This document shows positions 35,915 to 45,437 of a stretch of DNA of 45,437 nucleotides, in pieces; position 1 is the stretch's first letter; the number at the start of each line of letters is the position of its first letter. The stretch is from Occallatibacter sp. GTDB lineage: Bacteria; Acidobacteriota; Terriglobia; Terriglobales; Acidobacteriaceae. The position numbers and the translations under genes are program-made. Below the pieces are notes generated by a model. The model made no database searches and was not told where the DNA came from. It worked only from the letters and a program-made list of their open reading frames with translations. Location of the stretch: the NCBI GenBank assembly GCA_031296305.1, contig JARLFZ010000021.1:1-45437 (forward strand), written 5' to 3'.

Positions 35915-37450
35915 ATGCGAGAACAGAAGGTGAGTGCAGGGTTGACTCAGAGCTACCTTATGCGTTCGGTTTTCGGGCCATGGCGCTCGCGCGGTTCGGG
36001 TACACGCATTCTTCTGTTCACGCTCGAGTCCGCACTGGGCGCAGTGATCGTGGTGTTGATGGCGGCGCTGGCGCATTGGTTCAGTTGGCTGGCTCCCATC
36101 GCCGCATTGCTCTATCTGTCGATCGTGGTTCCCACAGCGCTGCTGTGCGGCTTCTGGCAGGCCGCGATTGTTTCGCTCACGGCAGTAGTGGCGCAAAGCT
36201 GGTATTCGGCGCGGCATCCGGAGCTCGCCCTGGCCGCCGACCCGGCAAATACGATCGCGCTGGTGGTGTTTGTGCTGGTGGCCCTTACCGTGAGCCGGCT
36301 TTCGTCGCGCATCACCGAGCACGCGCGCGAGGCGGAGTCGCGGGGCGGCCAGATGGAGGATCTCTACGAGTTCACGCGGCGCACCCTGCAGATGAACCTG
36401 TACATCGAGCCTGGGCCGCAGTTGGCCGAGCTGGTGCACGATATCTTCGACCTCGAAGCCGTCGCGGTCTTCGACGCCGATTTGCACGACGTCTACCAGG
36501 CAGGCTACTGGAACGTCGATCCCCAGGAGATGGCGCAGAACGTCTACTATTTCGAAACCTCGGACGACGATCCGGCGAGCGGGATTGGACGGCGCGTGGT
36601 GCGCCTGGGCGCGGTGCCCATCGGCAGCCTGGTGGTGCGCGGCGACACCAGCCCCTTGATCAACAACGCCATTGCATCGCTCATTGCCATCACCTTCGAT
36701 CGCTATCGCGCCTTCGCCAACGAAAGCCGCATCGAGACCGAGCGGCGCACAGAACAACTGCGCTCCACCGTGCTCGACAGTCTGGCGCACGCCTACAAGA
36801 CCCCGCTCACGGCGATTCGCGCGGCGTCCACAGGCTTGACCGAGATGGGTCGTCTTTCGCCAGGGCAGGCGGAGCTGGTATCTCTGATCGACGAGCAGAC
36901 GCGCCTCTTGGGCGACCTGACCACGCGCCTGCTGACCACGGCGCGTCTGGATGCGGGCGAAGTTTCCATTCACGTCGAGAGCGTGAATGCGGGAACGCTC
37001 GTCGAAGAGGTCGTGAGCAGCCTAAAAGACCGCCTGGCCAGCATGAAAGTTGCCATGGAAATCGAGGACGAGGACATGATGCTGAGCTGCGACCGCCAGT
37101 TGATGGTGATGCTGCTGACCCAGTACATTGACAACGCGTGCAAATACTCGCATTTCGGCACCACGATCACCATCCGGGTTCTTGCCGTCGGGGCAGAGGC
37201 GATTTTTTCCGTGCACAGTTTCGGGCCGGTAATCCCCATGGCCGACCGCGAGCGCATCTTTGACCGGTACTACCGCTCCTCTGGCTATGCCAATCGTGCC
37301 ACCGGAACGGGTATCGGACTTTCCGTGGCCAGGCGCGCGGCGCAGATCCATGGCGGCTACGTGTGGGTGACCAGCGACGAGCAGGAAGGTACCACGTTCT
37401 TTGCAGCGATTCCTCTGACAATGGATAAGGAGAGTAGTGAGACAGTTTGA
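35915..37450 (+). CDS. KdpD-like sensor histidine kinase
   Basis: 511 residues. A DUF4118-type four-helix membrane region (LLFTLESALGAVIVVLMAALAHWFSWLAPIAALLYL ...) is followed by a GAF-like domain (about 145-270), then HisKA with phospho-His in SLAHAYKTPLTAIRA and HATPase_c (N box QYIDNACKYS, F/G boxes DRYYRSSG and GTGIGLSVARRAA). The KdpD Usp/osmosensing N-terminal half is absent and no kdpABC is present, so potassium sensing is not implied. The ATG at 35915 has a weak RBS; ATG 35960 is possible. The IR-flanked element begins inside its last codons and separates it from its regulator. Confidence 0.92.
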   Translation: MREQKVSAGLTQSYLMRSVFGPWRSRGSGTRILLFTLESALGAVIVVLMAALAHWFSWLAPIAALLYLSIVVPTALLCGFWQAAIVSLTAVVAQSWYSARHPELALAADPANTIALVVFVLVALTVSRLSSRITEHAREAESRGGQMEDLYEFTRRTLQMNLYIEPGPQLAELVHDIFDLEAVAVFDADLHDVYQAGYWNVDPQEMAQNVYYFETSDDDPASGIGRRVVRLGAVPIGSLVVRGDTSPLINNAIASLIAITFDRYRAFANESRIETERRTEQLRSTVLDSLAHAYKTPLTAIRAASTGLTEMGRLSPGQAELVSLIDEQTRLLGDLTTRLLTTARLDAGEVSIHVESVNAGTLVEEVVSSLKDRLASMKVAMEIEDEDMMLSCDRQLMVMLLTQYIDNACKYSHFGTTITIRVLAVGAEAIFSVHSFGPVIPMADRERIFDRYYRSSGYANRATGTGIGLSVARRAAQIHGGYVWVTSDEQEGTTFFAAIPLTMDKESSETV

Positions 37451-37552
37451 AGCCGTCGTGAAAGGGCACGACTTTAGTCGTGCCGTAAGGGCAATGAAAT
37501 GATTGAGGGCTTTAGCCCCCGCGAAACGGTTTTGTTCAAACTGGCCCACTAC
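37434..37552. repeat. IR-flanked hairpin element, copy 2
   Basis: Outer arms GTAGTGAGACAGTTTGAA (37434-37451) and TTCAAACTGGCCCACTAC (37535-37552), 16 of 18 paired. The inner hairpins are GGCACGACTTTAGTCGTGCC (37465-37484) and GGGCTTTAGCCC (37507-37518). The 33-bp block 37456-37488 is identical to 24466-24498, while the outer arms differ from those of copy 1. The left arm holds the kinase TGA stop. Confidence 0.85.
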
Positions 37553-37569
37553 GAAAAGGAGAGTTCGGG

Positions 37570-38340
37570 ATGATGCAGCAGGCAATCCGCATTCTGGTGG
37601 TAGACGATGAATCGGCAATCCGCCGGGCGTTGCGGCCTCCGCTCGTGGAGCTGGGCTTTCAAGTGGCTGAAGCCTCGCGCGGCGAGGAGGCGCTGCAAGT
37701 GCTGCGCAACGCCACCTACGACGCCGTGCTGCTCGACATCAACATGCCGGGCATCGGCGGCATCGAGACGCTGCGGCGCATCCGCACCTTCGCCCCGCGC
37801 CTGCCGGTGCTCATGCTCACCGTGCGCGACGAGGAAGAGGATAAGGTGGAGGCGCTGGACCTGGGCGCCGACGATTACGTGACCAAGCCCTTCAGCACGC
37901 GGGAGCTGATCGCGCGCATTCGCAGCGCGGTGCGGCGTGTGCGCGCTCCGGCACGGCCCGAAGACGCGCCGATTGAGATTGGGGAGATTCGCCTCGAGCC
38001 ATTGAAGCGGCGCGTGACCAAGCGCGGCGCGCCGGTGAAGATGACGCGCAAGGAGTTCGACATTCTGTATTGCCTGATGAGCCGGGCGGGGCGCGTGGTG
38101 ACGTATGCCAAGCTGCTCACCGCCGTGTGGGGCGCAGAATGCCGCGAAGAAGTCGAGTATCTCCGCACCTTCGTGCGTCAACTGCGCAAGAAGATCGAGG
38201 ACGACCCTTCGCGCCCACTCTATCTGCTCACCGATGTCTACGTCGGCTACCGCTTTGCCGACGCGCTGATGTTTCAGCAGGAATCCGCGGCCGGCGGCGG
38301 CTCGCTGGAGCCGCCAGAAGAGACGACAGAAGAGGCATAG
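37570..38340 (+). CDS. OmpR/KdpE-family response regulator
   Basis: 256 residues. Receiver: ILVVDDESAIR, phosphoacceptor Asp in VLLDINMPGIGG, Thr in MLTVRDEEED, Lys in DDYVTKPFSTRELIARI. A short linker leads to a winged helix-turn-helix: IRLEPLKRRVTKRGAPVKMTRKEFDILYCLMSRAGRVVTYAKLL, then VEYLRTFVRQLRKKIEDDPSRP (recognition helix) and GYRFAD. A Glu/Gly-rich tail of about 25 residues is extra. AAGGAG is well placed before the ATG. Partner of the kinase 120 bp upstream, from which it is separated by the IR-flanked element, so expression of the pair may be uncoupled. Confidence 0.94.
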   Translation: MMQQAIRILVVDDESAIRRALRPPLVELGFQVAEASRGEEALQVLRNATYDAVLLDINMPGIGGIETLRRIRTFAPRLPVLMLTVRDEEEDKVEALDLGADDYVTKPFSTRELIARIRSAVRRVRAPARPEDAPIEIGEIRLEPLKRRVTKRGAPVKMTRKEFDILYCLMSRAGRVVTYAKLLTAVWGAECREEVEYLRTFVRQLRKKIEDDPSRPLYLLTDVYVGYRFADALMFQQESAAGGGSLEPPEETTEEA

Positions 38341-38347
38341 ACAAAAT

Positions 38348-38393
38348 GTAGCGCCGGTCTCCCGACCGGCTGTAGCGCGGGCGTCCGCGCCCG
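38348..38393. repeat. Two-hairpin dispersed repeat, copy 7
   Basis: Hairpin 1 GCCGGTC-TCCC-GACCGGC; hairpin 2 GCGCGGGCG-TCCG-CGCCCGCGC. It starts seven bases after the response-regulator stop, between convergent genes. Confidence 0.9.
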
Positions 38394-38464
38394 CGCTCGC
38401 CCAAGATCATCACGAAACTAAGTGGACACGGTGTGGACACGGTTCAAGCGCCGCTAACACTGCG

Positions 38465-38500
38465 AGCTCCGCCAACCCCGCCAACTCCGCTAGCTCCGCT
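38465..38500. repeat. 9-bp tandem array next to apt
   Basis: Units AGCTCCGCC, AACCCCGCC, AACTCCGCT, AGCTCCGCT. Same family as 6029-6064, and like it abuts the stop codon of a minus-strand gene and follows a two-hairpin repeat. Confidence 0.85.
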
Positions 38501-38501
38501 C

Positions 38502-39050
38502 TCACTCGTCGTAGTGCAGCAGGCTGAACACGTCGTATTCCTTGAAGCGCTCGCGCCCCTTCAGAAAATCGAGCTCGATGGCAAACCCCAACCCGGAAAT
38601 CACGCCGCCCAACTGCTTCACCAGTTTCACGGTAGCTTCCATGGTGCCGCCGGTCGCGAGCAGGTCGTCAACCAGCACCACATTCTGGCCGGGCGCGATC
38701 GCGTCCATGTGAATCTCCAGCGTGTCGGTGCCGTATTCGAGGTCGTAGGTCACGCGAGCCACCGGAGCGGGCAGCTTCCTGGGCTTTCGCACCGGAACAA
38801 ATCCGGCGTTCAGACGATAGGCCAGCGCGGGGCCGAAGATGAAGCCGCGCGCCTCAATGCCCAGCACCAGATCGACCCTGCGCCCGATGTAATGCGCGGC
38901 CATCGCGTCAATCAACTGCGCAAATCCGGTCTTGTCCTTCAGGAGCGTGGTGATGTCGTAAAACAGAATCCCCGGCTTGGGAAAATCGGGTACAGTGCGG
39001 ACCAGTTTCTTCAGGTCCTCTACGTTCACAGGCTTGCTGGTTTCAGACAT
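38502..39050 (-). CDS. apt: Adenine phosphoribosyltransferase
   Basis: Purine salvage enzyme turning adenine and PRPP into AMP. 182 residues from ATG 39050 (a GTG at 39074 would add eight). Typical order: [52 protein letters not shown] (flexible loop and substrate contacts), [27 protein letters not shown] (PRPP motif) and a C-terminal hydrophobic strand. Minus strand, downstream of acylphosphatase with a tandem-repeat-filled gap of 240 bp. Confidence 0.95.
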
Positions 39051-39108
39051 GGCAGTGCGTCGCTCCTCGGTCACAGATCGATTGTCGGTGAGCCGTTCCC
39101 AGTCTACT

Positions 39109-39289
39109 AAAGACAGGGACTAAGGGACTAAGGGACTGAGGGACTAAGGGACTGAGGGACTGAGGGACTCGGGACTAGAACACCTTCCGAGGAAGCAGTG
39201 GTTGCGATTTAGTTTAGGGCTGCTCTCGCTTTACGCGTGACCGCAACTTTCGTTAGTCCCTAGTCCCTAGTCCCTTAGTCCCTGTCTTT
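39109..39289. repeat. 8-bp tandem repeats in inverted orientation between acyP and apt
   Basis: The left array (39109-39176) is built of AAGGGACT/GAGGGACT units starting AAAGACAGGGAC. The right array (39253-39289) is its reverse complement in kind, ending GTCCCTGTCTTT. The two can pair over 35 or so bases around a 75-100 bp loop. It lies at the acyP 3' end and upstream of apt. Confidence 0.85.
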
Positions 39290-39290
39290 T

Positions 39291-39572
39291 TCACCACGCC
39301 CCATCAATGCGAAACGAATCGAGGCTCTCCCCTTCGCTGTCGTTGAGCGTGTGTTCCACGAAGCGATCGACGCGGCTGCCGCGCGGGCCGCGTTTCAAAC
39401 TGGATCGAAGCTCGTCGAGGTCGGCTGCCTCGCCGGCGGCGACAACTTCCACGTCGCCCTCCTCGGTGTTGCGCACCCAGCCGCGCAGGTCGAGTTCGCT
39501 GGCCTCGCGCTGCACAAACCAGCGGAAGCCCACGCCCTGCACGCGGCCCTGAATCAGAAAGTGAAGGACCAT
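39291..39572 (-). CDS. acyP: Acylphosphatase
   Basis: 93 residues, the normal size. Hydrolyses carboxyl-phosphate bonds such as acetyl or carbamoyl phosphate. The catalytic Arg lies in IQGRVQGVGFRWFVQREA and the catalytic Asn in LRGWVRNTEEGDVEVVAAG, both intact. ATG 39572 is preferred to the upstream TTG 39578; the RBS is weak. Minus strand, downstream of the MarR gene by about 50 bp. Confidence 0.95.
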   Translation of the reverse strand: MVLHFLIQGRVQGVGFRWFVQREASELDLRGWVRNTEEGDVEVVAAGEAADLDELRSSLKRGPRGSRVDRFVEHTLNDSEGESLDSFRIDGAW

Positions 39573-39621
39573 GGTCAATCAGCAGTTTTGCAGATAGGCG
39601 CGAGCGGGCGCAACTGACGCG

Positions 39622-40110
39622 TTACACGGCGGGCGACCGCGCCTCTTCAAGGAGCTGGCGCAGTCGCCGCAAAGTCTGTTCGATGGCATTGCGTTCTCTG
39701 GGCTTGGCGCGCTTGAGAGCCGCCTGAAGCGGGCCCTGCGTCAGAGCGGGGAGTTGTGTGCGAAGGAATTCCTTGACCTCAGGCGCCGGATGAATGCGGC
39801 TGATGCGGCCGTCCTGCGGGTCGTTGTGTCGCACCAGCAGGCCGCGTCCCTCGAGCCGGTCCACGATGCCGCTGACCGTGGAATGCGCCAGACTCAACTG
39901 GCGGCTCAGTTCCTTCAGACTTACACCGTTCTGAAGGACCACCGCACGCATCAGCGCCGTCTGTGGCACGGTGAGGCCCGCTTGAGCAAATTCCGCCTCC
40001 GCAGGCTTACGCATTGCATGGCGGATGGCGGCCAGGTCGCTGTCGATGCGTTCGGCCTGCGCACCGATCTTCCGGATTCCCTGCCGGCCGGGATGTTGCT
40101 CTGCTGGCAT
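39622..40110 (-). CDS. MarR-family transcriptional regulator
   Basis: 162 residues. Winged helix-turn-helix with MarR order: LTVPQTALMRAVVLQNGVSLKELSRQLSLAHSTVSGIVDRLEGRGLLVRHNDPQDGRISRIHPAPE, where SLAHSTVSGIVDRLE is the recognition helix and DPQDGRISRI the wing. Flanking helices form the dimer domain. TTAGGAG precedes the ATG. It begins 12 bp after the methyltransferase gene, so they form an operon. The palindromic site at 40708-40733 in that operon's promoter is a strong candidate for autoregulation. Confidence 0.93.
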   Translation of the reverse strand: MPAEQHPGRQGIRKIGAQAERIDSDLAAIRHAMRKPAEAEFAQAGLTVPQTALMRAVVLQNGVSLKELSRQLSLAHSTVSGIVDRLEGRGLLVRHNDPQDGRISRIHPAPEVKEFLRTQLPALTQGPLQAALKRAKPRERNAIEQTLRRLRQLLEEARSPAV

Positions 40111-40122
40111 GCCGCAAATCTC

Positions 40123-40695
40123 CTAAAGCACGCCGGGGATCAGCGCCTTCACGCGCGTGCGGTAGGCAGGATACGCATGAGGAAAGGTCTGCTCCATCAG
40201 GCGCTCTTCCTGGCGCATCTTTACCGCAAGCGACGCAACGATGATAACGAAACCAACGATACCGCGCCAACGGCCAACTGCGAGAACAGTTCCGGCAAGC
40301 GCAAATAGAAGTCCCGTGTAGATCGGATGGCGGGCCAGTGCGTAGGGGCCGTTAACGATCAACTCATGCCCGCTCTTGACCATGGCGCGGCCGCTCCAAT
40401 TCGCACCCAGCGTAAGGCGCGCCCAGCCTGCGAAAATGCAGCCGATCGCAGTCGCGGCCAAGCCGGCAAGCTCCATCGCGCGCGTGTGCGGAACAAAATA
40501 TGCGTCCATCCAGGTGCCTGGGAATATGAATCCGCCAATGCAAAGGCCGCCGAGCAGCGCGAGCAGATTCTGCGCCACGCGGTTCCCCAGGGGCCCGGAG
40601 CGCTCGGTGCGCTTGGTGAATAGCATTCCGGCAAGCCAAAACAGGGCGATGAGCTTCCAGCAGTAGTCGATGGCGCTGAGGGGATCGAATGCCAC
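40123..40695 (-). CDS. ICMT-family integral membrane methyltransferase
   Basis: 190 residues. Five or so membrane helices (CWKLIALFWLAGMLF, LLALLGGLCIGGFIF, LAGLAATAIGCIFAGWARL ...) and the isoprenylcysteine carboxyl methyltransferase (ICMT/PEMT-like) C-terminal motif: GPYALARHPIYTGLLFALAGT, then RQEERLMEQTFPHAYPAYRTRVKALIP. These bind SAM; in bacteria the substrate is usually unknown. GTG 40695 is chosen because GGAGG lies seven bases upstream and the chain then begins with the first helix. First gene of a two-gene operon with MarR. Confidence 0.88.
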   Translation of the reverse strand: MAFDPLSAIDYCWKLIALFWLAGMLFTKRTERSGPLGNRVAQNLLALLGGLCIGGFIFPGTWMDAYFVPHTRAMELAGLAATAIGCIFAGWARLTLGANWSGRAMVKSGHELIVNGPYALARHPIYTGLLFALAGTVLAVGRWRGIVGFVIIVASLAVKMRQEERLMEQTFPHAYPAYRTRVKALIPGVL

Positions 40696-40707
40696 GATGT
40701 TACCTCC

Positions 40708-40733
40708 GTCGTATACGATACGTCGTATACGAC
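40708..40733 (-). promoter_or_regulatory. Palindromic operator upstream of the ICMT-MarR operon
   Basis: GTATACGA-TACG-TCGTATAC (40711-40730) is a perfect 8+8 inverted repeat. It is also two near-identical 11-12 bp palindromes, GTCGTATACGA at 40708 and GTCGTATACGAC at 40722, 14 bp apart. On the minus strand it lies just upstream of the GGAGG and overlaps a likely -10 region, with TTTGCG as a possible -35. Confidence 0.75.
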
Positions 40734-40814
40734 ACATAATGACGCAAAGTCCGGCGGCTGTCAAGAGGAATTCTCATGGCCCGGGACAACCTTCGCGCTA
40801 CACTGGAACTCACG

Positions 40815-41405
40815 ATGGTCTTCGTCCTCGACAACTACGATTCCTTCACCTACAACCTGGTCCAGTATCTGGGCGAGCTGGGCGCGGAGGTCGTGGTGCG
40901 CCGCAACGACGAAGTCACGCCCGAAGAAGTCGAGGCCATGAAGCCGGAGCGCATTCTGCTTTCGCCGGGCCCGTGCACGCCCGCAGAGGCCGGCATCCTG
41001 GTCCCCCTCATTCGCCATATGGCAGGAAAAACGCCGATTCTGGGTGTCTGCCTCGGCCACCAGGCCATCGGCGAAGCCTTCGGCGGCAAGGTCGTCCGCG
41101 CCAAAACCTTGATGCACGGCAAGACCAGCGCGGTGGATCACGATGGCACAGGCATCTTCGCCGGCCTACCCACGCCGCTCACCTGCACGCGTTATCACTC
41201 GCTCATCGTGGAACAGAAATCGCTGCCCGCCGAGCTCACCGTAACGGCGCGGACCGCGGAAGCCAACGGATCGGGCCCCGGCAGTGAAACTGTCATTATG
41301 GGTCTGCGCCATCGCACGTTGCCCATTGAGGGCGTGCAGTTCCACCCCGAGAGTGTGCTCACCGAAGGCGGCCATCAAATGATCCGCAATTTCCTGGACA
41401 TGTAA
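40815..41405 (+). CDS. pabA: Aminodeoxychorismate/anthranilate synthase glutamine amidotransferase subunit
   Basis: 196 residues from ATG 40815, where the family N-terminus [18 protein letters not shown] begins; ATG 40776 would add a 13-residue non-conserved leader. Class I glutamine amidotransferase: nucleophile Cys79 in [15 protein letters not shown], then [13 protein letters not shown] with His177 and Glu179. It delivers ammonia to a TrpE or PabB partner to make anthranilate or aminodeoxychorismate; sequence alone does not separate TrpG from PabA, and neither partner is adjacent. Standing alone favours a shared PabA/TrpG role. Confidence 0.92.
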
Positions 41406-41459
41406 GTCATGCACGGAACGCCAAAGGCCACAACTCGCCGCGCAAGCACCTTACGCGAA

Positions 41460-41554
41460 GTACCGCCGGTCTCCAGACCGGGGTCCCCGGCAAGCCCGCT
41501 TTTGGCTTGTTGGGGTGGGAGACCAGCTGTCGTGCGGGCGTCCACGCCCGCACC
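41460..41554. repeat. Two-hairpin dispersed repeat, copy 8, with nested insertion
   Basis: The first hairpin is GCCGGTCT-CC-AGACC. A 40-bp stretch (41480-41519) follows, then AGACC again (41520-41524), then AGCTGTC and the second hairpin GTGCGGGCG-TCCA-CGCCCGCAC. Removing 41480-41524 restores the canonical repeat except for one base. The insert itself folds: CCCCGGCAAGCC pairs with GGCTTGTTGGGG, the GG/TT positions as wobbles. Confidence 0.85.
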
Positions 41555-42557
41555 GGTCGCAGCGCGACTACGAATCCAAGGCGTTTGGGCATTAGCCCTG
41601 AGCGTTTTCTCAATCGCCGGATCGGCGCTCTATGCGCAGACAACTCCGACGGCAAGTCCCGCGAACGAGCCGCCAGCGCCCACCGCGCAGCCCGATCAGT
41701 CCCCAACCTTCGCCACACCTCCCGTCGCCATTGTTCCGCTGGACAAGTCGATCCCCGGAGCGGCCCTCGATGTCGCAGGCTCTTTGCAGACTTGGAACGG
41801 TCGCGCGTACCTCACCGCCAGCGGCAGCATTTCTGCCGGCACGGCCACGGCAGAGGTCACGTTGCCCTATCGAGGAACACTCCGAATATGCGCCTCAAGC
41901 ACAGTCAAGCTTGCAGCCGACGCCAGTGCGCCCGTCGGCGAGGTTCCAGGTTTGCTCATCGCGCTCGATCGCGGCGCAGTGGAGATGAGTTTTGCCGCCA
42001 GCACCGCGCGCGAAAAAAATGCCGACACCTTGCAGACGCCGTACTTCCGTATTCTTATCGGCGGCCCGAATGCGGCCGATGTAAAAGTGCGGCTCGGCGA
42101 GCACGGCGATACCTGCGTAGATAACGCCGGCGCCAACGCGCCTTATGTCGTCGTCAGCAGCGTCTTCGAGGGCGGCGTCTACCGCGTGCAGCCCGGCCAG
42201 CGCGTCATGTTCGAGCACGGCAGCCTGCAATCGGTGGTCGACCAGGAAAAAGAACCCTGCGGATGCCCACCACCGGTAAAGTCTGAGGGCAACGAGTTTC
42301 CGCTGGCGCAGAGTGAAGGACTCGCGCCCGGCTCGGCGCAAGCTCCAGTAGTTACCGCCCCACCGCCACCTGTCGCCAATGCCTCCACCGCGCTCAGCTA
42401 CAACGGCGCCGATCACGCAGCGCAAATCGCCGCGCCGGCAACGCCCGCTCCGGCTGCGAGCGCGACGCCCCCGCCCCAAACTCCCGCCCCGCAGAAAAAG
42501 CCAGGATTCTTCGGCAAGATCGGGCGGTTTTTCAAGCGCATGTTCGGCGCTGAATAA
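41532..42557 (+). CDS. Secreted FecR-like hypothetical protein
   Basis: 341 residues from GTG 41532; the same frame extends to ATG 41409 through the dispersed repeat. A signal peptide (GVWALALSVFSIAGSALYAQ) and a Pro/Ala-rich linker precede a beta-rich domain (about residues 75-245: LQTWNGRAYLTASGSI ... VTLPYRGTLRICASSTVKL ... LLIALDRGAVEMSF) with the strand pattern of FecR-type domains. Cysteines at ICASS, TCVDN and PCGC may form disulfides. The tail is Pro-rich, ending in a basic amphipathic helix (KKPGFFGKIGRFFKRMFG). Function unknown. Upstream of the deacetylase-caspase gene and possibly co-transcribed. Confidence 0.7.
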   Translation: MRASTPAPVAARLRIQGVWALALSVFSIAGSALYAQTTPTASPANEPPAPTAQPDQSPTFATPPVAIVPLDKSIPGAALDVAGSLQTWNGRAYLTASGSISAGTATAEVTLPYRGTLRICASSTVKLAADASAPVGEVPGLLIALDRGAVEMSFAASTAREKNADTLQTPYFRILIGGPNAADVKVRLGEHGDTCVDNAGANAPYVVVSSVFEGGVYRVQPGQRVMFEHGSLQSVVDQEKEPCGCPPPVKSEGNEFPLAQSEGLAPGSAQAPVVTAPPPPVANASTALSYNGADHAAQIAAPATPAPAASATPPPQTPAPQKKPGFFGKIGRFFKRMFGAE

Positions 42558-42708
42558 CCAGCAGGCACACCGGGAACGAGCGACCGGCGCAACGTCCCCC
42601 AGTTTTTGCTCCCTCGCTCCCAACTTTTCCCACATCACGCCCGACGGCCCGCATCACCGCCTGCGCGTTGGAGTACCCTAATCCTGAGATTCCGTTTCAG
42701 GTGTTTCC

Positions 42709-45437
42709 ATGCACACTTTTCATCTACCCCTGTGGGCCGCCGTGGCCGCGCTTTCGCTGGGCGCCGTCTCCTCCGCATCGCAACAAACCATTGCTTCGCA
42801 AGCTGCGTCGCCGTCAATTTCAGGGCCAGACACCCCTGCTGCAGTTGCCGCAGACGTAGATGCCAGCGTCGCCTCCTACCGCAAAATCATTGTGCTCATG
42901 GACGACTCTGCGGCTCTCGACGAGGGAAATCTCCAGCGCGTGCGCACCGCCGCCTGGATTCTTTTTGAGCGGAATCGCGACCGCCTCGATCAGTTGGAAG
43001 AAAGCCTTCGCGCGGACGCTGCCGGAAATAGCTCCCCGCTCGCCACCGCTTTTCTTGATCGGCTGGAAAACGACGCCGAATTTCGCGATGCCGACAAGCT
43101 TGTCTTCCGCGATCTCCTCGACGACCTGGCCGCGATCCCTGCGGCGCAGATCCCCAGCGCTTCGCTGCGTCAACGCATCGGCGACGACGCGGCGGCTCTC
43201 GAGAAGATCCAGGCTCTCTATCAGGCCGAGATTTCACAGATCTTCTCAGGGCTTCAGACCCGCGGCATGGCGGTGCACCGCGAAGCCTGGGATCACTACA
43301 TCACATTTCTCAAGTCGAAATACAAGCGTGAAGCGATTCTCAAAGAGAGCAACTCCGAGCTTCCTCCCGCGGAGTCGCGCGGCGGCGCAGCAGCCCGCAG
43401 CAAGTTGGAGATTTCGGGATTGGAGCTTCCCAGGAAGACCGTGGCTCTCACCTTTGACGACGGTCCCCATCCGCGCTACACCGATCAAGTGCTTGCCATC
43501 CTCAAGAAGTACGACCTGCACGCAGTCTTCTTTGAGGTCGGCAAGAACCTGGGAACAGTCAACGGTAACAACGAAGTGAAGCTCGGCTTTTCTTCCGCCG
43601 TCAGCTACCGCATTCTCGCATCGGGCTCGTTCCTCGGCAATCACACCTACAGCCATCCCGTTCTGCCCAAGCTGGACGCGGCCGATCAGTCGCGGGAGAT
43701 CGATTCCACCAGCCTGCTCCTCACCAGCATTCTCAAATCGCCACCGGTTCTGTTTAGGCCGCCTTACGGCGCGGCGAATGCAGACATTCTCTCCGAAGTG
43801 CAATCGGACAAAATGAAAACGGTCATTTGGAATGTAGATTCTGAAGACTGGGCCGATCCGGTGCCGAACTCAGTAGCGCAAAGAGTAATTACCGACGTCG
43901 AAAAGCAGCAGCGCGGAATTATTCTCTTCCACGACATTCACAAAGTTGCTCTCGACGCCCTTCCGGTTGTGATTGAGACGCTGGAAGCCGATGGATATAC
44001 CTTCGTCACGTGGAATGGCACGGCCTTTGGCGCGCCCGAAACGCGCGGCCAACAGCCGGAGGCGGCTGCCCCTCCGCCCGCGGTCGAGCCCTATCGCGAG
44101 AGCTGGGCAGCGATCGTCGGCATCGATGACTACGTCAACTGGCAGAAGCTGCAATATGCGGTGCACGATGCACTGGGCGTGAAAGACACGCTCATTCAGA
44201 AGTACGGCTTCAAGCCGGATCACGTGTTCACTCTTCTGGATGGACAGGCCACGCGGCAGAACATTCTCTCGCTGCTTGGCGACAAGCTGGGCGGCGCAAC
44301 GGTGCAGCACGAAGATCGCGTCTTCGTCTTTTTTGCCGGCCATGGCGCCACGCGCAAGCTCGCCTCGGGAAGGGAACTGGGCTACATCGTGCCGGTCGAT
44401 GCGGACCTCGCAGACCTCGAGGGCAGCGCCATCTCCATGACAAACTTTCAGGACATCTCAGAGGCCATCCCCGCCAAGCACGTGCTGTTCGTCATGGATT
44501 CCTGCTACAGCGGCCTGGCGCTCACCCGCGGCGGCATGCCGGCGTTCTCGCAGAATTACCTTAACGAGATCTCGCGCCGCGAAGCCCGCCAGATGTTTAC
44601 CGCCGGCGGAGCCGACCAGCAGGTTGCCGACAACGGACCCAACGGGCACTCCGTCTTCACCTGGACGATGCTACAGGGCCTCGATGGTCGCGCCGATTTG
44701 AATGGCGATGGCGTCATCACGGCCACGGAGCTGGCTGCCTATGTGGCTCCTGCCGTCTCAGCGCTCTCCCATCAAACTCCAGCATTCGGCAATCTGCCCG
44801 GCACTGAAGGCGGCGACTTCATCTTCAGCCTCAAGCACGATACCGAATTCCTCAACGAAGATTCGGCGCAGCTCGACGATCAAGCCATCAAAGTCAACGC
44901 CGAACTCGACACGCTCCGCAAGCAGATGCGCGAAGAAGAGCGCGCCAACCAGGAGCTGCGCAAGCAACTGGCAACTGCTGAAGCCAGGTTGAAGCAGGAC
45001 ACGCAGACTACAGGTGCAGGCCCGGCCCATTCCACGACGCCAGCGCTGGGCAGCTCCTCCGCATCCACCTCGGCCAGCGCTTCGCCTCCTCCGGCCTCGC
45101 CAACGTCGAACTCCACCGCTCCCGAACCGCCAAAGTCGGACACTGCCAAATCGCCCTCCGAGATTGCCGCCGCCGCCAACGACGAAGGCATGCGACTCTA
45201 CCAGGAAAAGCACTATCAGGATGCGGCCATCAAATTCATGCAGGCGTCCAATCTACAGCCAAACATGGCGCTCTATGCCAACAATGCCGGCTTTGCGTTC
45301 TTCCGCATGAGCCAGTACGATGATGCCGTGAAATGGTTCAAGCAGACCATCACACTCGATCCCAAACGTGCCGTTGCCTGGCTGAATTTGGGTGATGTTT
45401 ACGTCCATCTCAAGAACAATGCAGAAGCTCGCGACGC
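42709..45437 (+). CDS. Exported polysaccharide deacetylase / caspase-like / TPR fusion, partial
   Basis: Open to the window edge; 909 residues visible. Signal peptide (PLWAAVAALSLGAVSSAS), then a helical region (about 50-235). The NodB deacetylase has every motif: TFDDGP (248-253), HTYSH (312-316, metal His pair), RPPYG (350-354), DSEDW (377-381) and LFHD (406-409). A caspase-like (C14) domain starts at WAAIVGIDDY (466), with catalytic His545 in FFAGHG and Cys599 in MDSCYSG. DLNGDGVITATE (from 663) is EF-hand-like. A coiled coil (about 723-763), a Ser/Pro-rich linker and TPRs (from about 822) follow. It should act outside the cytoplasmic membrane. The start is ATG 42709; RBS weak. Confidence 0.9.
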   Translation, partial: MHTFHLPLWAAVAALSLGAVSSASQQTIASQAASPSISGPDTPAAVAADVDASVASYRKIIVLMDDSAALDEGNLQRVRTAAWILFERNRDRLDQLEESLRADAAGNSSPLATAFLDRLENDAEFRDADKLVFRDLLDDLAAIPAAQIPSASLRQRIGDDAAALEKIQALYQAEISQIFSGLQTRGMAVHREAWDHYITFLKSKYKREAILKESNSELPPAESRGGAAARSKLEISGLELPRKTVALTFDDGPHPRYTDQVLAILKKYDLHAVFFEVGKNLGTVNGNNEVKLGFSSAVSYRILASGSFLGNHTYSHPVLPKLDAADQSREIDSTSLLLTSILKSPPVLFRPPYGAANADILSEVQSDKMKTVIWNVDSEDWADPVPNSVAQRVITDVEKQQRGIILFHDIHKVALDALPVVIETLEADGYTFVTWNGTAFGAPETRGQQPEAAAPPPAVEPYRESWAAIVGIDDYVNWQKLQYAVHDALGVKDTLIQKYGFKPDHVFTLLDGQATRQNILSLLGDKLGGATVQHEDRVFVFFAGHGATRKLASGRELGYIVPVDADLADLEGSAISMTNFQDISEAIPAKHVLFVMDSCYSGLALTRGGMPAFSQNYLNEISRREARQMFTAGGADQQVADNGPNGHSVFTWTMLQGLDGRADLNGDGVITATELAAYVAPAVSALSHQTPAFGNLPGTEGGDFIFSLKHDTEFLNEDSAQLDDQAIKVNAELDTLRKQMREEERANQELRKQLATAEARLKQDTQTTGAGPAHSTTPALGSSSASTSASASPPPASPTSNSTAPEPPKSDTAKSPSEIAAAANDEGMRLYQEKHYQDAAIKFMQASNLQPNMALYANNAGFAFFRMSQYDDAVKWFKQTITLDPKRAVAWLNLGDVYVHLKNNAEARD

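Follow-up and report, generated by a model that had tools for sequence, protein, structure and literature searches.

A deacetylase-caspase-TPR protein of the Xanthomonas type encoded at a contig end of Occallatibacter sp.

A known family and its neighbours

Proteins joining a polysaccharide deacetylase to a metacaspase were catalogued and named Xanthomonas-type metacaspases by Asplund-Samuelsson et al. in 2012 (PMC3501461). The available part of that paper counts 17 of them, usually carrying one to three tetratricopeptide repeats (TPRs) and in some cases none, includes already the Acidobacteria Solibacter and Koribacter, and discusses a possible auto-processing. A gene of this kind is found at one end of the stretch of DNA analysed here, 45,437 nucleotides of Occallatibacter sp. 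(assembly GCA_031296305.1, contig JARLFZ010000021.1; hereafter the window). The encoded protein has the same order of PF01522, PF00656 and TPR domains, and shares with the family an intact Cys/His dyad. It belongs to this known family, and its architecture, published in 2012, is not new. What is added are the usual presence of a single, catalytic cysteine in the mature part, the higher conservation of the caspase relative to the other parts, an invariant arginine (Arg607), a lineage-restricted Arg-Gly pair, and the patchy occurrence of the gene.

Both enzymatic moieties resemble proteins of known structure. The peptidoglycan deacetylases PgdA and PdaC (2c1g, 6h8l) have the CE4 fold and motifs in common with the window protein (34-42% identity in structural alignments), but are not fused to a caspase. 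Bd3279, a capped peptidoglycan deacetylase of the predator Bdellovibrio (PDB 5jp6), likewise has an N-terminal helical domain ahead of its CE4 domain, and VIA aligns the two; in contrast to the window protein it has no caspase or TPR, and the N-domains of Bdellovibrio-type relatives lack a sequence-profile match to that of the window protein. Orthocaspases and metacaspases (AtMCA4, 6w8r; Yca1, 4f6o) share the caspase fold, the His/Cys dyad and conserved acidic residues, and the window protein differs from them by its probable export and its deacetylase. The likeness to the MALT1 paracaspase is one of fold.

Conservation of the fusion protein

The fusion gene starts with an ATG, and its frame is uninterrupted, with no stop ahead of the contig end (Table 1). 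The window is an entire contig (G000:C86:1-45437), one of the 171 contigs of a 4.10-Mb genome, so that the C-terminus of the protein is cut off. The missing end was read from P0002, a database protein of 935 amino acids with a single substitution (residue 417) relative to the window protein. The mass of P0002, 101.5 kDa with the signal and 99.0 kDa counted from residue 25, agrees with the ~97-100 kDa given for Xanthomonas (PMC3501461). Pfam identifies in the window protein PF01522 (residues 240-371, E 2.3e-28), PF00656 (Peptidase_C14; residues 466-680, E 3e-16) and TPR_2 (E 1.6e-9); EF-hand_5 scores E 0.008, under the cut-off of the family.

Table 1. Features of the fusion gene and of its product in the window
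Feature	Position	Strand	Remarks
Deacetylase-caspase-TPR fusion gene	42709..45435	+	909 codons, contig end reached before stop; ~26 codons and stop missing
Probable Sec signal peptide	42709..42780	+	residues 1 to ~24, read from sequence by eye
N-terminal all-helical domain	42838..43419	+	residues 44-237; no match in Pfam or by PDB sequence
R224-G225, candidate cleavage site A	43378..43383	+	in linker ahead of deacetylase; lineage-restricted
CE4/NodB polysaccharide deacetylase domain	43426..44028	+	residues 240-440
R446-G447	44044..44049	+	in deacetylase/caspase linker; close relatives only
Caspase-like C14 domain	44092..44829	+	residues 462-707
Catalytic His545	44341..44343	+	153/153 relatives
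Catalytic Cys599	44503..44505	+	152/153 relatives; sole cysteine of the protein
Arg607, candidate self-processing site B	44527..44529	+	in post-Cys loop; 153/153 relatives and 8/8 hold-outs
EF-hand-type loop DLNGDGVITATE	44695..44730	+	residues 663-674; small-subunit region, flanked by a helix on either side
Coiled-coil-like long helix	44878..44997	+	residues 724-763
TPR region	45163..45435	+	residue 819 onward, cut by contig end

Relatives were collected in two ways. In a protein search the 7994 best candidates were scored, 2321 of them at E <= 0.001, and 120 (67-100% identity) were listed. In a GTDB scan the best 80 of 320 relatives were kept as loci: 37 (L007-L043) extend well into the caspase, 42 match essentially the deacetylase alone, and one (L044) covers N-domain and deacetylase until its contig ends. 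The 120 listed proteins (close relatives) and 33 of the 38 loci L007-L044 (distant members) make up an alignment of 153 rows. In all of them (120/120 and 33 loci) deacetylase and caspase are found in one chain, and the former precedes the latter, as it does also in eight of eight members held out from discovery. The TPR part is aligned in all 153 rows; the tail of P0118 is frameshifted, and P0117 begins within the N-domain.

The uninterrupted fusion, the complete motifs and the TPRs had been described in a prediction made earlier from the sequence alone, and are all borne out; the same architecture, for which it proposed a search, is found in relatives from several phyla. A frameshift or chimeric join at 43950-44110, raised in the same prediction, is ruled out by the 153 one-chain rows. 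D251, H312, H316, R350, W381, H408, D409 and H545 are identical in all aligned relatives; D250 and C599 are kept in 152, and the numbering originally assigned to the two caspase residues, H545 and C599, was correct. Both exceptions sit in P0037, which carries D250N and C599Y, and is possibly a double pseudoenzyme or a product of sequencing error. The mean identity of the 33 distant members to P0002 is 65% in the caspase, 51% in the deacetylase, 41% in the TPR part and 35% in the N-domain. The caspase is the most conserved part of the protein.

In the deacetylase of the window protein the stretches TFDDGP, HTYSH, RPPYG, DSEDW and LFHD, which we take to be the five motifs named after NodB, are all present, as is the Asp-His-His metal triad. 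Among solved deacetylases the nearest are peptidoglycan deacetylases (5 of the top 6 VIA rows, 6 of the top 6 Foldseek rows). The N-domain is positioned like the N-terminal domain of Bd3279 in one structural alignment (VIA). A sequence-profile comparison with Bdellovibrio-type N-domains found no relation (probability 0.4%), and homology to Bd3279 by sequence is unsupported; the Foldseek superposition on 5jp6 has a root-mean-square deviation of 10.7. N-domain and deacetylase are found without a caspase in P0133 (421 aa) and perhaps in P0132 (440 aa), which may be a truncated fusion, hinting that caspase and TPRs were gained or lost as a block.

In the caspase, the acidic residues D487 and D597 are found in all 153 rows, and match acidic positions of solved metacaspases that presumably line the specificity pocket. 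An acidic pocket has been described for orthocaspases (PMC5756287 and PMC6426788), and owing to it the characterised C14 members, caspases excepted, cleave after Arg or Lys, as stated in the available part of PMC5756287. From D487 and D597 the same specificity is predicted here. Orthocaspases are marked by the absence of a p10 domain at the sequence level. Here the profile match to solved metacaspases spans the p20 part only; the structural model aligns with caspase-fold structures along nearly its whole length. The acidic stretch that follows the catalytic His in AtMCA4, presumably its calcium site, aligns with a less acidic stretch of the fusion protein, the EF-type loop being a separate element. 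This loop was looked for in 27 caspase loci, 18 of which matched the dyad pattern as written, while nine (L001 and L002 included) did not. It occurs at the equivalent place in 8 of the 18 class-level caspases showing the dyad, two of the eight being fusion members, and is rejected as a peculiarity of the fusion. The genome hosts three more caspase-domain proteins (L001, L002 and L003), with no deacetylase match on any of their contigs; in L003 the repeats look SEL1-like and the EF-type loop is degenerate.

Exactly one cysteine is found in the mature part of 92 of the 120 close relatives, 27 of the 33 distant members and 5 of the 8 hold-outs. There is no cysteine in P0037, and there are eleven in P0118, the protein whose tail is frameshifted. 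The control, 75 other, shorter deacetylases, averages 4.9 cysteines per 1000 residues, ten proteins having none. The one-cysteine composition would suit a thiol enzyme working in oxidising surroundings, and is suggestive of it, not proof. Several distant members feature a lipobox-like motif (e.g. L017, L020, L023, L029), others an N-terminal stretch resembling a membrane helix (L012, L015, L021, L027), some starts being unresolved. Because of the signal-like segment of the window protein and of these starts in its relatives, a cytoplasmic location is unlikely, and export behind a Sec signal, as originally proposed, is probable.

Candidate cleavage sites and proposed function

Arg607 is located eight residues beyond the catalytic Cys, in a loop with a predicted local distance difference test score (pLDDT) below 50. 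An Arg is found at this position in 161 of 161 sequences, and is plausibly a self-processing site. At site A the Arg-Gly pair is present in 120/120 close and 29/33 distant members (149/153), though the length of the linker differs greatly. The site was also monitored, with the prediction recorded beforehand, in eight members unused in discovery; of the nine new loci fetched (L152-L160), L158 was left out, as it has a broken frame and is the same record as L042. Arg-Gly was found in one of the eight. Six of the seven misses fall in a clade of eight rows devoid of the pair (L153-L155, L157, L159 and L160, with L015 and L036 from the discovery set), supported by a Shimodaira-Hasegawa-like approximate likelihood ratio (SH-aLRT) of 99. 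Two loci met later, L187 and L177, have Arg-Gly, the latter being probably the same record as L012. Arg-Gly at site A as a family-wide rule is rejected; the site is at best lineage-restricted. R446-G447 is present in 120/120 close relatives; of the 33 distant members, five have an Arg-Gly between deacetylase and caspase.

On balance, the protein is probably a deacetylase of the envelope to which an active protease, specific for Arg or Lys, is coupled. The CE4 domain would act in the cell envelope, where it would deacetylate either N-acetylglucosamine of peptidoglycan or some similar polymer of amino sugars. Maturation of the C14 domain would proceed by self-cleavage at Arg607, over which a metal in the EF-type loop may exert some control, and the mature protease would cut after Arg or Lys; most likely it would cleave, at the place where the deacetylase acts, proteins of the envelope or the linkers of its own chain. 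TPRs and coiled coil may recruit substrates or partners, and proteolysis may control deacetylation.

Several observations weigh against this assignment. Chitin and xylan CE4 enzymes appear in the same structural match lists as peptidoglycan deacetylases, and the substrate is a prediction from likeness. Arg607 could instead be structural. Of the self-processing originally suggested, the invariant Arg past the catalytic Cys stands, but a cleavage-like site beside the deacetylase is absent in 7 of the 8 hold-outs, and the claim stays conjectural. The calcium-type loop of the original prediction is present but not special, being found in further bacterial caspases, and any match to metacaspase calcium sites is at most putative. 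As a control for the cysteine count, the other deacetylases are a loose one: they are shorter, ten of the 75 are devoid of cysteine, and their export status was unchecked. Neighbours were surveyed in 38 loci, including the window, by simple open reading frame calls, of which many are spurious given the high GC content: the families that recur across lineages are all ubiquitous ones (7 loci, the window among them, have response regulators, and 3 an ABC ATPase; the rest are single-lineage), and the context yields no pathway. The available parts of the literature on the family mention no assay of a purified member, no search having been aimed at one.

Alternatively, the two enzymes may be merely co-exported, each acting independently on its own envelope target. 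Proteins lacking the caspase (P0133, perhaps P0132) and the poor conservation of the deacetylase/caspase linker among distant members would fit this arrangement; yet the order of the domains, constant in 153/153 rows and 8/8 hold-outs across several phyla, suggests a coupled role, and independent action is less likely. A tighter coupling, in which the N-domain would cap or tether the deacetylase, and the caspase would switch on wall deacetylation by cutting the Arg-Gly at R224, is rather doubtful. Such self-unlocking is weakened by the hold-out result, Arg-Gly being kept in one of eight members and missing from an entire clade of eight rows, as well as by the poor match of the N-domain to Bdellovibrio-type domains, both in profile (0.4%) and in superposition on 5jp6 (10.7). 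It is unlikely that all these elements work as a single-chain envelope switch, in which the exported, one-cysteine, Arg-specific caspase would cut itself after Arg607 and then sever the Arg-Gly linker between the deacetylase and an N-domain that would serve as a cap and, in many relatives, as a membrane anchor, freeing deacetylation, perhaps gated by metal through the EF-type loop. Were this true, the lineages keeping Arg-Gly, at least, would have a caspase-driven zymogen that operates outside the cytoplasm.

The caspase may otherwise take part in programmed cell death, a role that has been claimed in Xanthomonas campestris, the deacetylase helping to dismantle the wall. The available part of PMC3501461 cites programmed cell death in Xanthomonas as correlated with both the expression and the activity of caspase, reports a family homologue in X. 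campestris pv. glycines, and compares a 55-kDa caspase to precursors of ~100 kDa; here residues 447-935 account for 52.9 kDa, and the whole protein for 101.5 kDa. The agreement in mass is however loose, the protein is probably exported, and 79 of the 80 genus genomes lack the gene. Caspase-3-like activity is cleavage after Asp. The activity followed in Xanthomonas is caspase-3-like (PMC4006831), whereas the acidic residues of the window protein predict cleavage after Arg or Lys; moreover, the gene itself is tied in by antibody cross-reaction, as far as the available part of PMC3501461 goes. A role as executioner is the least probable of these alternatives, and appears very unlikely. With an envelope deacetylase coupled to a protease as the preferred reading, the conservation pattern makes an entry of the 2012 catalogue testable, asking whether the wall chemistry of bacteria is under the control of caspase-type proteolysis in their envelope.

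Distribution and genomic context

Fusion loci were found in Acidobacteriota, Myxococcaceae, Burkholderiales, other Pseudomonadota, Syntrophorhabdus, and one metagenome-assembled genome (MAG) labelled Acidimicrobiia. Many of the genomes behind the counts that follow are incomplete. At E <= 1e-60 one of 80 genus genomes, the one hosting the window, has a close match to the caspase, and so do 8 of 396 genomes of a phylum sample, the same genome included, one of the eight (G040) having a broken frame. In the class of a Roseateles genome the matches at E <= 1e-50 are 3 in 369, the Roseateles genome included. Four Acidobacteriota hold-outs cluster with Pseudomonadota (SH-aLRT 99 in a quick tree with midpoint root). 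This suggests horizontal transfer, and paralogy or mis-binning may explain it too. As the distribution is patchy and partly cross-phylum, an accessory, transferable function is suggested. Phage records gave no match. Plasmid records with a caspase match are 140, all below 60% identity, and the best of them, the sole one inspected, has no deacetylase motif.

Upstream of the fusion gene, a block spanning 35915-42557 encodes a histidine kinase, a response regulator, apt, MarR, an ICMT-like protein, pabA and a 382-aa protein with no Pfam match. The block is kept wholly or partly in 12 of 12 genus stretches (L130-L141; pabA in 12, the 382-aa gene in 11), and pabA is present in 53 of 59 genus genomes. 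That the contig comes from a wrong genome is rejected, the block being conserved across the genus from the histidine kinase to the 382-aa gene. The block is followed by trpE in 7 of the 10 genus stretches examined (by Pfam in one); in the genome hosting the window, 84% complete, no trpE was found at E <= 1e-50. Since the fusion occurs in just one of the 80 genus genomes, an artefact of assembly may lie farther upstream than the region considered above, in the interval that separates the 382-aa gene from the fusion gene. The intergenic DNA resembles that of the genus MAG G019 (69% over 380 columns) up to ~42670. Contigs of G019 and of a second genus MAG, G041, end in or right after the 382-aa gene, adjoining the position of the fusion gene's start in the window (42557-42709); further fusion genes or strain variation may be hidden there.

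In Xanthomonas, Xylella and Stenotrophomonas the gene adjoins trmE (PMC3501461). In contrast to these gammaproteobacterial loci, pabA and the 382-aa gene are found upstream of the window gene, and the downstream side is beyond the contig. In L159 and L160, two loci found in the class to which a Roseateles genome belongs, an MnmE/TrmE gene adjoins the fusion.
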